Source: a virus
IMG/VR virus record: IMGVR_UViG_3300010160_000214
Location: 1-24,548 of that record
DNA length: 24,548 nt
Strand: one strand, 5' to 3'
A program made the position numbers and the translations under genes. Positions 15,129-24,357 of this stretch are shown here, piece by piece. The first letter of the stretch is position 1. The number at the start of each line of letters is the position of its first letter. Below the pieces are notes generated by a model. That model saw only the letters and a program-made list of their open reading frames with translations, searched no databases and was not told the origin of the DNA.

Positions 15129-15961
15129 TAGAAAGTTATCGAGCCGGAACCCGTCCATTTATACACTCGGTAGCCGCCAGCTACCGTAATGGTTGGCGAA
15201 CCCGTTGTTGAAGTTGCGGCAGGGAAAGCGTCTGAATACCGGACGATTACAATGCCTGAACCGCCAGCCCCGCCGCTAGCAGACGCGCCGCCAGCGCCGC
15301 CACCGCCGCCGCCTGTATTTGCAGTTCCGGCAGCGCCAACGCCGCCAGTGTTTCCGTTGCCACCACCACCAGTGCCACCTGTTCCGGCTGTTCCGCCATT
15401 TGCACCACCACCACCACCACCGGCATAAGTTACCGACGATCCGCTGATGCTGCTGGCAGTGCCTACGCCGCCATTACCTCCAACCGCAGGGTCTTTGTTG
15501 CCATTTGCGCCAACCGCACCGGCACCGCCACCACCACCACCGCCTAGATTTGTGCCGTTGAGCGAACCGACACCGCCATCGTTTCCTTGTGACGGTGATG
15601 TTGACGGAGTATTTCCTGTGCCGCCAGCGCCACTGACCGGCCCACCACCGCCGCCACTGCCGCCGTTACTACCCGCTGCGCCTTGCCCACCATTACCGCC
15701 GCCAGCAGAAGTAATGGAAGAAAAAACACTAGCAACGCCAACGCTACCCGTAGCGCCGCCAGCGCCAACGGTTACTGTGTATGGGGTACCAAGAGCTATC
15801 GAAAAACCGGTTGCCGTTCTAAAACCACCCGCACCACCGCCCCCTTGCCCGTTACCACCTGACGCGGCTCCACCCCCACCGCCAGCAACGACAAGGTATT
15901 CAACCGCAGAAAGCACGTTTGTAGCCTTGCGAGTAAAAAAGAAATTAGGGGCAGCAAACAT
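15128..15961 (-). CDS. Glycine-rich adhesin / tail-fibre tip, 277 aa
   Basis: After an N-terminal MFAAPNFFFTRK segment, VEYLVVAGGGGG opens a long region (about residues 25-235) built of Gly runs split by Ser/Asn/Thr/Ala. Such sequences can fold as packed polyglycine-II helices, as in T4-like and Salmonella phage S16-type receptor-binding adhesins. The C-terminus GGSGIVIVRYSDAF... and GGYRVYKWTGSGSITF is the usual end of glycine-rich phage domains. The chosen ATG (15961) overlaps the preceding stop as TAATG; a longer upstream frame is discarded. The likely function is receptor contact at the end of a fibre made with the two preceding proteins. Confidence 0.83.
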   Translation of the reverse strand: MFAAPNFFFTRKATNVLSAVEYLVVAGGGGGAASGGNGQGGGGAGGFRTATGFSIALGTPYTVTVGAGGATGSVGVASVFSSITSAGGGNGGQGAAGSNGGSGGGGGPVSGAGGTGNTPSTSPSQGNDGGVGSLNGTNLGGGGGGGAGAVGANGNKDPAVGGNGGVGTASSISGSSVTYAGGGGGGANGGTAGTGGTGGGGNGNTGGVGAAGTANTGGGGGGAGGASASGGAGGSGIVIVRYSDAFPAATSTTGSPTITVAGGYRVYKWTGSGSITF

Positions 15962-16818
15962 TATGCGAACGCCTGTGCGAAGGTGCCATACCAAACCGAG
16001 GCTATACACACAAAGCTAAGAATGTCCACGCCGGTTGTGGCCGTTGTGGTGATCGTCGGAACGGTGCCGCCCGGCCACTTAACGCCGGTAAAGGTTGCTG
16101 TGCGCGACCCGGTTCCGTCTTGAATCAGACGCACAATAAACGAAGTGCCAGAAGTTGCAGTCGGCATTGTAAACGTGCAGTTACCCGTCAACGTGTAGGA
16201 AAGAACCGTCCCGCTTGCAAGCGCGATGGTCTGCGTGGTCGATGAGTTGACAATGGCTGGCGCGGTTTCAAGGTAGGCCGTAACAGTTGGATTTGTCAAA
16301 ACCGGCGTAGTCAGCGTCTTGTTCGTCAGCGTGTCGGTCGTAGCCCGGCCTACCAAGGTGTCGGTAGAGGTCGGCAGTGTGAGTGTGCCGGTATTTGAGA
16401 TAGTCGCAATAATCGGCGCGGTTAGCGTCTTGTTTGTCAGAGTGTCTGTCGTAGCCCGGCCAACCAATGTGTCCGTAGAGGTCGGCAGTGTAAGCGTACC
16501 GGTGTTTGAAATCGTGGCTATGATCGGCGCGGTTAACGTCTTGTTCGTCAGCGTGTCCGTTGTAGCCTTGCCCACTAGGGTGTCTGTAGAGGTCGGCAAG
16601 GTCAGCGTCGGCGTGCCGGCCACCGCAGGCGTTACAATCGTTGCGGTGCCCGACGTGCTGCCCGTTATGGCTACAGCTGTGCTGCTAACCGATCTACCTG
16701 CGGTCAAATTGCTTACCGCAACATTGACGGTGGTGCCGGACTGAACAATCGGCAATACCTCTGCGCCCGTTAGCGGCGTAGTGGCTGCGGCGAGCGATGA
16801 AATTTTTACGTTAGCCAT
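15961..16818 (-). CDS. Tail-fibre protein with 37-residue tandem repeats, 285 aa
   Basis: Thr/Ala/Val-rich beta protein. The N-terminus NVKISSLAAATTPLTGAEVLPIVQSG (3-28) is a common fibre attachment motif. Residues 71-107 and 108-144 are two nearly identical 37-residue repeats (core TSTDTLVGRATTDTLTNKTL), and a third partial copy covers about 145-172. The C-terminal half (175-285) forms a globular beta domain with the TSFIVRLIQDGTGSRTATF segment and ends at AQAFA. It lies between the collar-domain fibre gene and the glycine-rich adhesin, so the three probably make one composite or branched fibre. Confidence 0.83.
   Translation of the reverse strand: MANVKISSLAAATTPLTGAEVLPIVQSGTTVNVAVSNLTAGRSVSSTAVAITGSTSGTATIVTPAVAGTPTLTLPTSTDTLVGKATTDTLTNKTLTAPIIATISNTGTLTLPTSTDTLVGRATTDTLTNKTLTAPIIATISNTGTLTLPTSTDTLVGRATTDTLTNKTLTTPVLTNPTVTAYLETAPAIVNSSTTQTIALASGTVLSYTLTGNCTFTMPTATSGTSFIVRLIQDGTGSRTATFTGVKWPGGTVPTITTTATTGVDILSFVCIASVWYGTFAQAFA
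16306..16608. repeat. 111-bp tandem repeats within the fibre gene, two full and one partial copy
   Basis: Copies run at 16608-16498, 16497-16387 and 16386 to about 16306 (leftward reading). The plus-strand landmark GTCTTGTTCGTCAG (or GTCTTGTTTGTCAG) recurs at 16316, 16427 and 16538, exactly 111 bases apart, keeping the reading frame. Copies differ mainly by silent or single-base changes. Unit-number change by recombination would lengthen or shorten the fibre shaft. Confidence 0.9.
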
Positions 16819-21187: not shown

Positions 21188-21445
21188 TCAGCACTTCCAC
21201 CGTTTAAGAGAGGCTTTTGCGCGTTCTGCCGGGCCTTTGGCCTTGGCTACCACGCCAGACATTCTGGCGCAAAACGATGCTTTGCGCCCTTTGTCGGCAG
21301 CAGTCTTGGGGCTAGGCGCGGGGGCTTTCAAATTGCTGCCGGTCGCCGCGTTATACTTAGCGCGCCCTTTGGCGGTCAGGCCGGCGCCTTGGCTAACGGA
21401 ACGTTTCTCGCCACGGCCAACGGATAACGACACGCTTTTCTTCAT
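21188..21445 (-). CDS. Small basic protein, 85 aa (DUF6321-like)
   Basis: MKKSVSLSVGRGEKRSVSQG, then AGLTAKGRAKYNAATGSNLK, a Pro-rich stretch, KGRKASFCARMSGV and a KRWKC end. The motif GAGLTAKGRAKYNxATGSNLKAP with a later SFCARM is, from memory, that of the DUF6321 mini-protein family. It has two cysteines (near residue 59 and at the last position). The ATG at 21445 overlaps the large terminase stop as ATGA and is preferred over an in-frame ATG four codons earlier. First of the three basic mini-genes between terminase and portal; no function known. Confidence 0.78.
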   Translation of the reverse strand: MKKSVSLSVGRGEKRSVSQGAGLTAKGRAKYNAATGSNLKAPAPSPKTAADKGRKASFCARMSGVVAKAKGPAERAKASLKRWKC

Positions 21446-22965
21446 GACCCCATCCATGAGTTAGTTACGGCGTTTGATTGAGAGTTTACGCGCCGCACAG
21501 GCTCGCGGTATTCGCGGTGCGCGACGGGGAAGGCAAAGGTGACGGCCAGCGCGTCAGCGGCATCCGGTGAGGCTAGTCCACGACTACGCATCTCTTTTTT
21601 CCCCTCAAGGAAAATCGTGCCGCTGCTGTTAGGCTTTTTCATGGGGCCGACCAGATCAGCTTTTAGCTGGCGGTCGCTTGGAATGGATGCTGTTTTCAAC
21701 CAATCCTTCATGGTGCCCCGCATTTCCGCCCGCTTGTTGCCCCACATAATAGAGTTCTTGGCCTTCCAGCCAAAGTTTACCCCGCGTACCTTATAACGCT
21801 GCTCCGTCAACCTGTCAAGTATGCCGTAGCCGAGGCCACCTTCGTCGATTACCGACAGGATCGGCTTGTATTCCTCTATGGCGTCGATCACCCGCCCAAC
21901 AATCGTCATGGTGTCCTCGCCCGAGTAGCGTTTGATTGCCACAATGTCGCGCCCCTGGCGCACCACCAGCACGGTTGAGTCGGCGCCCCCTCGCGCCGGG
22001 TCGATCCCTAATACTATGGGTGCGGTGGTGTCCTTCCACTTGTCGCGGTTCATGGCGTCCTCGACCAGCATGGGTTTGATGAACTGATCCTCGCCCGCGT
22101 CGGGGAATTCACCATACACCTCAACCTTGGCCTGCGGTGAGTCTTCGCCATACTCCGCAATAATCTGCTCGTATACCTTCTTGTCGGTGTCCTCGACGGT
22201 GCGCGCGTCCACGCTGCGAGTGTTCCAGAAGGCGCGCTTGGCGTGGAAACACTCAAAAAAGTAGCCCTCGTTGCGGCGCGGGTTGCTGAAGGCAAACCAA
22301 TACCGGTCTGGCGTGTTCTCGGTAAAGAACCCCGCGCCCACCTCCCATATCGGGTTGGGGATACCGCTTGACTCGTCAAAGATCAACATCATGCCGTCTT
22401 GATTATGCACACCCGCGTAGCTGTCCGGATTCTCCGCCGACCAGAGTTTGCCCTCTGCCGCCCAGTAGCGTGTGCCTTTCTTCAGGTCGCGCTCGACTAA
22501 TTCGCACAGCCACTGCGCCGGCACCAGCTTCGTTGCGCTAATCTCAAACCAGTGGTTGTTGATGGTCATCGCTGCCCACTTGGTCAGCTCAGCCCAGGTC
22601 ACCGACCGCAGTTGACTCTCCGAGTTGGCGCTGATGACGATGCTGCCACCGATGCGGGTGGTCAGCATCCACAGCACCAGCCAACTGACCAGTGCCGACT
22701 TGCCGATCCCGCGCCCGCTGCTAACGGCTTCCCGCAGGGTGTCCATCTGCACCTTGCCTTTGTTACCTTGTATATGCGCCTTAATGTCGCGCAGCACCTG
22801 CCGTTGCCACGCGCGCGGGCCTTTGAACTTATGCAGCGGGGTGTTCTTCTGCCCCCACGGAAACGCAAACAACACGAACGCCTCGGGGTCGTCGGCCAGT
22901 GCCGGCGACCATAGCTCCACCATCAACTTCTGTTCTTCGTCGGACTTATAGATGGGCTGTTGCAT
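21442..22965 (-). CDS. Terminase large subunit, 507 aa
   Basis: ATP-driven packaging motor with nuclease. The N-terminal ATPase has a Walker A-like SGRGIGKSA at residues 83-91, with preceding adenine-motif candidates near W53 and Q54. Walker B is MMLIFDES (192-199, catalytic E198), and a coupling motif FSNPRR lies at 226-231. The C-terminal RNase H-like nuclease shows acidic residues D322 (GIDPARGGADS), D374 (SVIDEGGLG) and D468 or D471 (SPDAADAL). Length is close to P22 gp2 (499 aa). The 20-base overlap with the small terminase gene implies coupled expression. All key residues appear intact. Confidence 0.96.
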   Translation of the reverse strand: MQQPIYKSDEEQKLMVELWSPALADDPEAFVLFAFPWGQKNTPLHKFKGPRAWQRQVLRDIKAHIQGNKGKVQMDTLREAVSSGRGIGKSALVSWLVLWMLTTRIGGSIVISANSESQLRSVTWAELTKWAAMTINNHWFEISATKLVPAQWLCELVERDLKKGTRYWAAEGKLWSAENPDSYAGVHNQDGMMLIFDESSGIPNPIWEVGAGFFTENTPDRYWFAFSNPRRNEGYFFECFHAKRAFWNTRSVDARTVEDTDKKVYEQIIAEYGEDSPQAKVEVYGEFPDAGEDQFIKPMLVEDAMNRDKWKDTTAPIVLGIDPARGGADSTVLVVRQGRDIVAIKRYSGEDTMTIVGRVIDAIEEYKPILSVIDEGGLGYGILDRLTEQRYKVRGVNFGWKAKNSIMWGNKRAEMRGTMKDWLKTASIPSDRQLKADLVGPMKKPNSSGTIFLEGKKEMRSRGLASPDAADALAVTFAFPVAHREYREPVRRVNSQSNAVTNSWMGS

Positions 22966-23416
22966 CGGGTTCCACGTGGATCATCCGCGCCGGGGGGCGC
23001 CGGTGCGGTTGCGCGTCCTCAACCTCGACTGCTTGGCCGTCGATCACCCTTGCGCGGGCTTCCTCAAGGGCGGTTAGCACACTGATCTTCTGATACACGT
23101 CCACACTGATCTCGGTCTTGGCCGTCCAACCGTGCACGTGTTGCAGGATCGCCAGGCTCGCTTTAGCGTCGCCCTGTTCCGACGCCTCGTTCAGTCGGCG
23201 GGCGGCTTGCATTTCGTTGTCGGCCTTGCCCTTCTGCGCGGCCATCTCGGCCAATGGGTCAAATTGGCACAATTGGCGATACTCCGTGGGGAGCATCCCG
23301 GCCGCTAGCGCCAGTGAATCCCCTTTTAAACCTAAATTTGCAGCAGTGTATATGGCGTTCAAGCGTTGCTCTGTCGCCTTGACAACGCGCGGTGTGAACG
23401 GGAGTGACTTGAACAT
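22946..23416 (-). CDS. Terminase small subunit, 156 aa
   Basis: Recognises the packaging start site and loads the large subunit. The N-terminal part contains NAIYTAANLGLKGDSLALAAGMLPTEYRQLCQFDP, a helix-turn-helix-like segment typical of podoviral small terminases. It is followed by a central helical oligomerisation part (MQAARRLNEASEQGDAKASLAILQHVHGW) and an acidic/basic tail. Length agrees with P22 gp3 (162 aa). I take the ATG at 23416; a TTG 12 codons upstream (23452) is also open, and neither has a strong Shine-Dalgarno sequence. It follows the endonuclease gene after 50 bases and overlaps the large subunit. Confidence 0.88.
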   Translation of the reverse strand: MFKSLPFTPRVVKATEQRLNAIYTAANLGLKGDSLALAAGMLPTEYRQLCQFDPLAEMAAQKGKADNEMQAARRLNEASEQGDAKASLAILQHVHGWTAKTEISVDVYQKISVLTALEEARARVIDGQAVEVEDAQPHRRPPARMIHVEPDATAHL

Positions 23417-23466
23417 AGCCCGTTTATAGCACGACTGTTTCTTGTTTGCCAATATGACAATTTTGC

Positions 23467-24123
23467 CTATGTTTGCTTGGCATACAATTTTTGCAAGGTA
23501 TTGATTGTTGACTCGGATGCTTTAGCTTCAAAATCTACCACCATAAATGACCGCGATACCGCGTATACCTCCCGTGCCAATTCAAACACAACCTTAAACG
23601 TATCCAACGCAACAAAAGCAAAAATATCGCACGCATCTTGGTTAGCTGGTAAACCACTAAATTTATACGCCGGCGTATCCCCCGCCCGGCCTTCGGTAGC
23701 ACACGTTGTAGTTTTGACTTGCACAGTAAAGAAATGCCCCCGCCCAAAGTCTCCGATAACATCGTATTCGGCGGTGTTACACGCCGGCAAAACGGCAAAA
23801 ACGCCGCACCGTTCCAATACCGCGCAGACTAAGTATTCTCCCGCAGCGCCGGTATGCCTGGGCACGTGGGTTTGGTTTGCCCAAGGGCCGTAACTGTCGC
23901 GCGCGGCGGCGCGCCTGCTGGTCTTAGCCGCCAGAGTTTCCGGCGGTAAAACCGCATACGAGGGTGCTAAGTCTTTAACGCTCACTGTCGTAGGCAATCC
24001 GTTTTTGCTTAGTGTGACGCGACCGGACTTAACCGGTATGGGCCGGGTGGTGCGGGCGTTTCGGACGCGGCCTTCTGGCGATATTTCGTATAGCCCTTCG
24101 TAACCAGTGATTGGCTTAAACAT
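23467..24123 (-). CDS. NUMOD4 plus PD-(D/E)XK endonuclease (I-Ssp6803I-like), 218 aa
   Basis: First gene of the leftward operon. Residues 3-60 match the NUMOD4 DNA-contact domain of HNH homing enzymes: PITGYEGLYEISPEGRVRNA, then GRVTLSKNGLPTTVSVKDLA. Residues about 92-145 are not HNH but a PD-(D/E)XK-type nuclease: GAAGEYLVCAVLERCG with E96, NTAEYDVIGD with D121, and TVQVKTTT with Q135 and K137. The E-25-D-14-Q-x-K layout, with Q in place of D/E, is the pattern I recall for the group I intron enzyme I-Ssp6803I (PDDEXK_5). It is probably a free-standing homing-type endonuclease, or one recruited to packaging because it sits beside the small terminase. No intron or disrupted gene flanks it. AGGA precedes the ATG by about 8 bases. 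Confidence 0.83.
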   Translation of the reverse strand: MFKPITGYEGLYEISPEGRVRNARTTRPIPVKSGRVTLSKNGLPTTVSVKDLAPSYAVLPPETLAAKTSRRAAARDSYGPWANQTHVPRHTGAAGEYLVCAVLERCGVFAVLPACNTAEYDVIGDFGRGHFFTVQVKTTTCATEGRAGDTPAYKFSGLPANQDACDIFAFVALDTFKVVFELAREVYAVSRSFMVVDFEAKASESTINTLQKLYAKQT

Positions 24124-24151
24124 ACCAAATTCCTAATAAAAAATAAAAATA

Positions 24152-24160
24152 ATTTTAGCA
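24152..24160 (-). promoter_or_regulatory. Extended -10 promoter for the leftward late operon
   Basis: Read leftward, TGCTAAAAT is an extended -10 element (TG-N-TAAAAT). It is placed about 28 bases before the endonuclease ATG, with a transcription start expected near 24145. No good -35 hexamer lies 16-18 bases upstream, as is usual for extended -10 promoters or those needing an activator. Transcription would cover the operon from 24123 down to 853. Confidence 0.45.
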
Positions 24161-24194
24161 CATCTTTTTTAATTGTAGCTGTTTATTTTTCAAA

Positions 24195-24203
24195 TTGTTC
24201 ACA
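24195..24203 (+). promoter_or_regulatory. Near-match DnaA box beside the AT-rich segment
   Basis: TTGTTCACA differs at one position from the consensus TTWTNCACA. It borders an AT-rich run (about 24125-24195), and the iteron-like array begins 58 bases further on. Alone it is weak evidence; taken together the parts resemble the arrangement of iteron origins. Confidence 0.3.
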
Positions 24204-24209
24204 AACGAT

Positions 24210-24226
24210 GCCGTGACCGACACGGC
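24210..24226. repeat. Inverted repeat GCCGTG / CACGGC
   Basis: A perfect 6-bp inverted repeat with a 5-base spacer (ACCGA), located upstream of the late promoter and between the DnaA-like box and the direct repeats. There is no T run on either side, so it is not an intrinsic terminator. It may be a protein binding site. Confidence 0.4.
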
Positions 24227-24260
24227 CAGCGCAAGGCCCTCCCTCCCCCCATGCTCCAAG

Positions 24261-24357
24261 TTAGTGTGCCCTCACTTCAAAGTTAGTGTGCCCTCACCTC
24301 AAAGTTAGTGGGCACTTACATCAAAGCCGGGATCGCATTGGGTTAGTGGGCACTCAC
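24261..24357 (+). repeat. Iteron-like direct repeats, four copies
   Basis: The 15-bp core TTAGTGKGCMCTYAC occurs at 24261-24275, 24283-24297, 24305-24319 and 24343-24357. The first three are exactly 22 bp apart and share a following HTCAAAG linker; the fourth is 38 bp further. Copies 1-2 carry TGCC where 3-4 carry GGCA. Each contains a GTG-N6-CAC (or TAC) dyad. The helical spacing (about two turns) indicates cooperative protein binding on one face. Confidence 0.85.

Follow-up and report, generated by a model that had tools for sequence, protein, structure and literature searches.

A phage gene beside the terminase genes joins a NUMOD4 arm to an I-Ssp6803I-type PD-(D/E)XK nuclease and is probably a free-standing homing endonuclease

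I-Ssp6803I (PDB 2ost; Pfam PDDEXK_5), an enzyme of about 150 aa, has its coding sequence within a group I intron that interrupts the tRNA-fMet gene of a cyanobacterium (PMC1995217). In I-HmuI (PDB 1u3e) and its NUMOD4-HNH kin, which are phage genes with free-standing relatives adjoining essential genes, an N-terminal NUMOD4 arm is linked to an HNH catalytic domain. A review of homing endonucleases describes the single well-characterised PD-(D/E)XK enzyme as compact and reports NUMOD-type arms on HNH, GIY-YIG and EDxHD enzymes (PMC3943268). Essential phage genes are places around which homing endonuclease genes from different classes gather (PMC10448857). Nuclease genes also lie beside terminase genes in the HK97 gp74 type and in Skunavirus HrdP; these are HNH enzymes conserved throughout their lineages. 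Each of the 89 skunaviruses studied has a packaging HNH, and packaging HNHs can be told from homing HNHs by whether their presence is fixed or variable (PMC12724721).

The open reading frame (ORF) described here (positions 23,467–24,123, minus strand, ATG start, 218 aa) combines features of these systems. It shares with I-Ssp6803I a restriction-type core and an E..D..QXK active site, but whereas that enzyme is compact, intron-encoded and devoid of a NUMOD, the ORF is a free-standing phage gene whose product begins with a NUMOD4 arm. That arm it shares with I-HmuI, although its catalytic part is PD-(D/E)XK rather than HNH. Stand-alone phage PDDEXK_5 proteins (PHROG 5018 / 24524) have the same nuclease domain and invariant residues at 24–33% identity but are mostly 130–210 aa long and lack the arm. 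Like the genes of the HK97 gp74 and HrdP type, the ORF adjoins terminase genes, yet it is PD-(D/E)XK and sporadic. I-Bth0305I, an EDxHD homing endonuclease, is set apart from the ORF by its different catalytic motif, as the review describes it.

The window, that is the whole stretch of 24,548 bases that was analysed, is an IMG/VR virus record; besides the gene for a terminase large subunit it has portal and coat genes of the P22-like type, and its source is a freshwater phage. The endonuclease ORF is located upstream of the small terminase gene terS (22,946–23,416, minus strand, ATG start) and the large terminase gene terL (21,442–22,965, minus strand; PHROG 2 terminase large subunit, 2e-43), all in one orientation. 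Searches of the window proteins against known families (Pfam, PHROG) gave no match for TerS, which is 55–100% identical among relatives and whose identity rests on its position and on a relative with an annotated terS at the equivalent place. The start of terS is probably the ATG at 23,416 rather than the TTG at 23,452; the TTG start, which the ORF list gives, sits within a −35 box. The gene is near-leaderless in appearance, with an apparent −10 TATAAA ending 6 nt ahead of the ATG, and relatives keep this arrangement. Elsewhere in the window, a 111-bp tandem repeat of 2.6 copies (16,313–16,598) lies within an ORF for a likely structural protein (15,961–16,818).

The N-terminus of the endonuclease ORF matches Pfam NUMOD4 over residues 3–43 (23,995–24,117, minus strand) with 30.3 bits against a gathering cut-off of 23.4 (E = 5e-7). 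A sequence-only reading of the window had assigned the N-terminal 60 residues to NUMOD4; the module is indeed present, but NUMOD4 proper covers only residues ~3–43, and homology to I-HmuI extends past it to about residue 54. A profile of eleven NUMOD4 N-termini including three from fusion alleles (profile A7) retrieved I-HmuI 1u3e as the sole confident PDB chain (7e-16; profile positions 2–62, 1u3e residues 3–63). In the Foldseek search of the PDB with the ORF model, I-HmuI appears at rank 22 (54 columns, rmsd 1.8, 30% identity), a match that we read as the predicted NUMOD4 arm. The NUMOD4 match is weaker in the other two alleles of the gene (8.5e-4 and 0.058).

The PDDEXK_5/I-Ssp6803I-type nuclease domain occupies residues about 86–217 (23,473–23,868, minus strand), as judged from PHROG 5018, a profile match to 2ost and Foldseek. 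PHROG 5018 matches residues 89–183 at 5e-9. Residues 89–143 of the window protein alone give a weak PDDEXK_5 match (E = 0.01) that lies below the Pfam cut-off, and the assignment therefore needs the relatives of the protein; the allele proteins of loci L003 and L162 match at 0.001 and 1.4e-4, respectively. Scanning viral contigs with the family alignment yielded many stand-alone PDDEXK_5 proteins, and an alignment of 33 rows was assembled from the four fusion proteins and 29 stand-alone relatives, 32 of which rows individually match PDDEXK_5 at E ≤ 0.01. Ten positions are invariant in this alignment (G92, G95, E96, L103, G107, D121, Q135, T139, Y153 and D166). They include E96 in helix 1 (23,836–23,838, minus strand), the predicted catalytic residue, and D121 of the PD motif (23,761–23,763, minus strand), the predicted metal-binding Asp. 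Q135-V-K137 (23,713–23,721, minus strand) places a QXK at the (D/E)XK position and aligns with the QVK of 2ost, K137 being conserved in at least 90% of the 33 sequences. The catalytic pattern E96, D121, Q135-x-K137 that had been read from the single sequence thus recurs across the family. A profile of the alignment (A6) had a single significant match in the PDB, I-Ssp6803I (2ost; 4e-4); the single-sequence PDB search with the ORF gave no match. No HNH family of Pfam or PHROG matched the catalytic part of the ORF, and no intact HNH signature follows the NUMOD4 module.

An AlphaFold2 model computed from the four fusion proteins alone reached a pLDDT of 35, and the model computed with the 33-row alignment a mean pLDDT of 83.8, with about 80–90 in the arm, about 83–94 in the nuclease and a weakly predicted linker at residues about 61–90. 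Foldseek placed chains A–D of 2ost at ranks 1–4 (9e-6 to 4e-4, TMt 0.65–0.71), followed by archaeal Hjc resolvases, and a restriction-endonuclease core fold is accordingly predicted for the C-terminus. Because 2ost is the sole significant PDB chain in the profile search and its four chains also head the fold search, the match to the nuclease family exceeds chance. The domain swap proposed in the sequence-only reading, a NUMOD4 arm joined to an I-Ssp6803I-type PD-(D/E)XK domain, is well supported by the profile searches together with the predicted fold. When the ORF is aligned with NUMOD4-HNH proteins, similarity fades at a ‘VHxLVAxAF’ stretch, the usual start of HNH_3, and this stretch is the putative swap junction. 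Three BFVD fold matches, Klosneuvirus A0A1V0SIJ8, A. anophagefferens virus A0A076FH51 and A0A3G3BW87, span most of the ORF length, and these proteins might represent a similar fusion elsewhere.

The gene is part of a presumably mobile cassette of about 725 bp comprising leader, apparent promoter and ORF (23,467–24,191, minus strand), which is absent in close relatives. Homology to empty-site phages ends after GAACAATTT (24,192) and restarts at the ORF's own stop codon. Locus L001, which carries the identical allele, and the empty-site phages have in common one block ending GAACAATTT and another starting from the cassette stop codon (cATAGGCAAAATTG); the two are separated by 725 bp in L001 but by only a short variable linker in the empty-site phages. 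In the comparison of L003 with L085, the cassette is likewise 725 bp and likewise ends at the stop codon. To the left of the insertion point, a conserved block GGGGGGAGGGAGGG...GGTCACGGCA...GAACAATTT (24,192–24,250, minus strand) is retained as 82–93% identical pieces in the empty-site phages L082–L096, and the clean empty site is found in phages with 94–98% identical TerL.

Reading by eye, we recognised an extended −10 promoter element TGCTAAAAT in the cassette (24,152–24,160, minus strand), and TG(C/T)TA(A/T)AAT followed by ATTTTT-rich DNA stands ahead of the ORF in all three alleles (window/L001, L003 and L162). The apparent terS promoter TTGGCA-N18-TATAAA (23,423–23,452, minus strand), also read by eye, is unbroken on the right-hand side of the cassette and conserved in empty-site phages. 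A sigma-70 pattern scan listed neither of the two. From these motifs, the cassette seems to bring a promoter with it, and terS seems to retain its own. Further upstream of the cassette, the window contains four copies of GTTAGTGnGCnCTnAC (24,258–24,357), three of them at 22-bp spacing, which are possible operators, iterons or packaging sites. As the repeats are found in relatives with the gene (L003) and in relatives with the empty site (L083, L085 and L093), a tie to the cassette was rejected.

Across relatives, the distribution of the gene is patchy. Of 80 loci with 80–100% identical TerL, only two (L001 and L002, one allele) contain it. A protein scan added L003 and L004 with a second allele (TerL 94% identical), and another scan added a fifth record, L161, and L162 with a third allele of 43% identity (TerL 68%). 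The three alleles, which diverge to 66% and 43% identity, are all open, keep every catalytic residue and lie upstream of terS, with an HNH_3 ORF in between in L162. On the terL tree, presence of the cassette requires at least three changes of state, and a single clade of the window with L003/L161 is rejected (lnL −107, AU p 3e-5); the sporadic distribution does not follow the phage tree. Between the window and L003, synonymous divergence (pS) is 0.71 for this gene compared with 0.55 for terS, 0.49 for terL and 0.52 for the portal gene, and pN/pS of the ORF is about 0.31. Judging from these values, the gene appears older than its neighbours or inherited separately from them, yet maintained under purifying selection.

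Other endonucleases use the same neighbourhood. A script applied to 90 loci in which 500 b or more of DNA precedes terS counted three with the fusion, one with an HNH and 86 with neither, a count that is not exhaustive as it missed endonucleases in L162 and L406 that were found by hand. HNH_3 genes occur at the equivalent position in L130 and in Manatee Spring podovirus MW202483, and another adjoins the L162 allele. A second insertion site at the terminase locus is marked by HNH_3-AP2 endonuclease genes that separate terS from terL (L087:849–1382 and L091:549–1064). The HNH_3 and HNH_3-AP2 genes around terS therefore identify the terS neighbourhood as an endonuclease landing zone. An ORF of ~300–360 aa between terS and terL (L003:3317–4219; also in L004, L084, L090 and L161) has a weak ART-PolyVal (ADP-ribosyltransferase) match (E = 0.008).

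The ORF is intergenic with its own start and stop, outside any intron or intein, and an Rfam search of the window gave no group I intron or other family. We assign a probability of roughly 0.8 to the reading that this is an intronless, free-standing homing endonuclease gene of a phage, whose product pairs a NUMOD4 arm with a PD-(D/E)XK blade. Domain make-up, active-site conservation, predicted fold, purifying selection, empty sites, patchiness and use of the site by other endonucleases were computed, and from them we infer cleavage, target and homing. The free-standing homing character already suspected from the sequence is well supported by the empty sites and the patchy distribution. According to the proposed mechanism, the N-terminal arm of the I-HmuI kind would grip DNA and place the nuclease on empty-site DNA, and the C-terminal domain would cut with the aid of bound metal ions and residues E96, D121, Q135 and K137. 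In a mixed infection, a cassette-lacking phage would be cut in terS or in the region upstream of it, and repair from cassette-bearing genomes would copy in the cassette together with flanking DNA. The patchiness with three distinct alleles suggests recent mobility, but repeated loss or ordinary recombination could give an equal pattern.

HNH proteins such as HK97 gp74 are reported to act together with terminase in nicking or cutting the packaging site, and the sequence-only reading had offered the role of a packaging cofactor as an alternative. The position of the gene directly upstream of terS and terL in equal orientation and its purifying selection would suit such a role. What nevertheless makes it unlikely is that the gene is missing from nearly all relatives that share the terminase: most of them have neither the fusion nor an HNH there, including phages with 94–98% identical TerL. 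The gene occurs sporadically, in contrast to packaging HNHs, which are fixed within a lineage, and it has neither the HNH motif nor the conservation with terminase across a lineage that mark packaging nucleases. It also has an apparent promoter of its own and sits upstream of that of terS, which terS keeps, and other mobile endonucleases occupy the position. All this speaks against the packaging alternative. Marker exclusion by phage homing endonucleases is a known phenomenon, and a site-specific nuclease that destroys co-infecting cassette-lacking relatives without copying itself would resemble a homing enzyme in structure and distribution. Several endonuclease classes at the site and clean insertions are, however, explained by gene copying and not by pure attack, and we rate this superinfection weapon as improbable as the packaging cofactor.

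Still less probable is a Holliday-junction resolvase or DNA-repair nuclease with a PD-(D/E)XK fold. Archaeal Hjc structures follow I-Ssp6803I in the fold search, but I-Ssp6803I clearly heads the ranking; the NUMOD4 arm suggests that DNA is recognised by its sequence, and a gene with a core repair role would hardly be missing from nearly all relatives. That few phages carry the gene might also fit a decaying or accidental ORF, but with three alleles at 43–66% identity all open, catalytic residues kept and a pN/pS of about 0.31, this explanation, already at odds with the conserved active site, is the most far-fetched of the four.

Returning to the free-standing homing endonuclease, the arm and the blade are each known, and we could not find their pairing described: the part of the literature that was searched contains no account of a NUMOD-PD-(D/E)XK enzyme. 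We consider it somewhat better than an even bet that the gene represents a new homing endonuclease architecture, in which a PD-(D/E)XK blade gave up the compact oligomeric DNA recognition of I-Ssp6803I, acquired a detachable HNH-derived NUMOD4 arm in its place and, as a cassette of promoter plus ORF, spreads to the region upstream of terS, so that it competes with HNH enzymes for the packaging locus of related phages. If true, the PD-(D/E)XK blade joins the modular arm-blade toolkit of phage homing endonucleases. The fusion, a compact natural arm-plus-blade nuclease, would show a swap at a definable junction, and its natural empty sites make target finding and homing directly testable.

The fusion is rare among the sequences searched. 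Profile classification of 116 non-redundant NUMOD4-type ORFs in the fetched loci gave 99 with HNH, 14 with neither nuclease, mostly truncated or degenerate, and three with PD-(D/E)XK, which are the three alleles described here. NUMOD4 is absent from all inspected stand-alone PDDEXK_5 ORFs. Of the stand-alone PDDEXK_5 phage proteins (L281, L282, L302, L316 and others), several bear a C-terminal helix-turn-helix instead of the arm, and arm-swapping may therefore be a habit of the family. Among 50,697 phage records, no relative was found beyond NUMOD4 or weak partial nuclease matches, and plasmids contained none. Two collection scans of bacterial genomes gave NUMOD4-only matches and no relative of the fusion, and 595 sampled bacterial genomes of two phyla, the second sample being without a positive control, gave no fusion and one weak C-terminal-only match.

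NUMOD4-like modules were also seen in other contexts. In Bacteroides phage BS162P1 (L165:3923–4912), NUMOD4 and HNH_3 are followed by a C-terminal stretch (LYIECKV...) resembling a PD-(D/E)XK domain of the resolvase type, which may make this protein a triple fusion. L195:5899–6909 combines a NUMOD4-like N-terminus with a sigma factor-like C-terminus, with no HNH detected. Finally, in Lysinibacillus genomes (L240, L241 and L243) and a viral contig (L061), a NUMOD4-like module ends a nuclease-free protein of ~200 aa that is conserved across species and possibly represents domesticated DNA binding.
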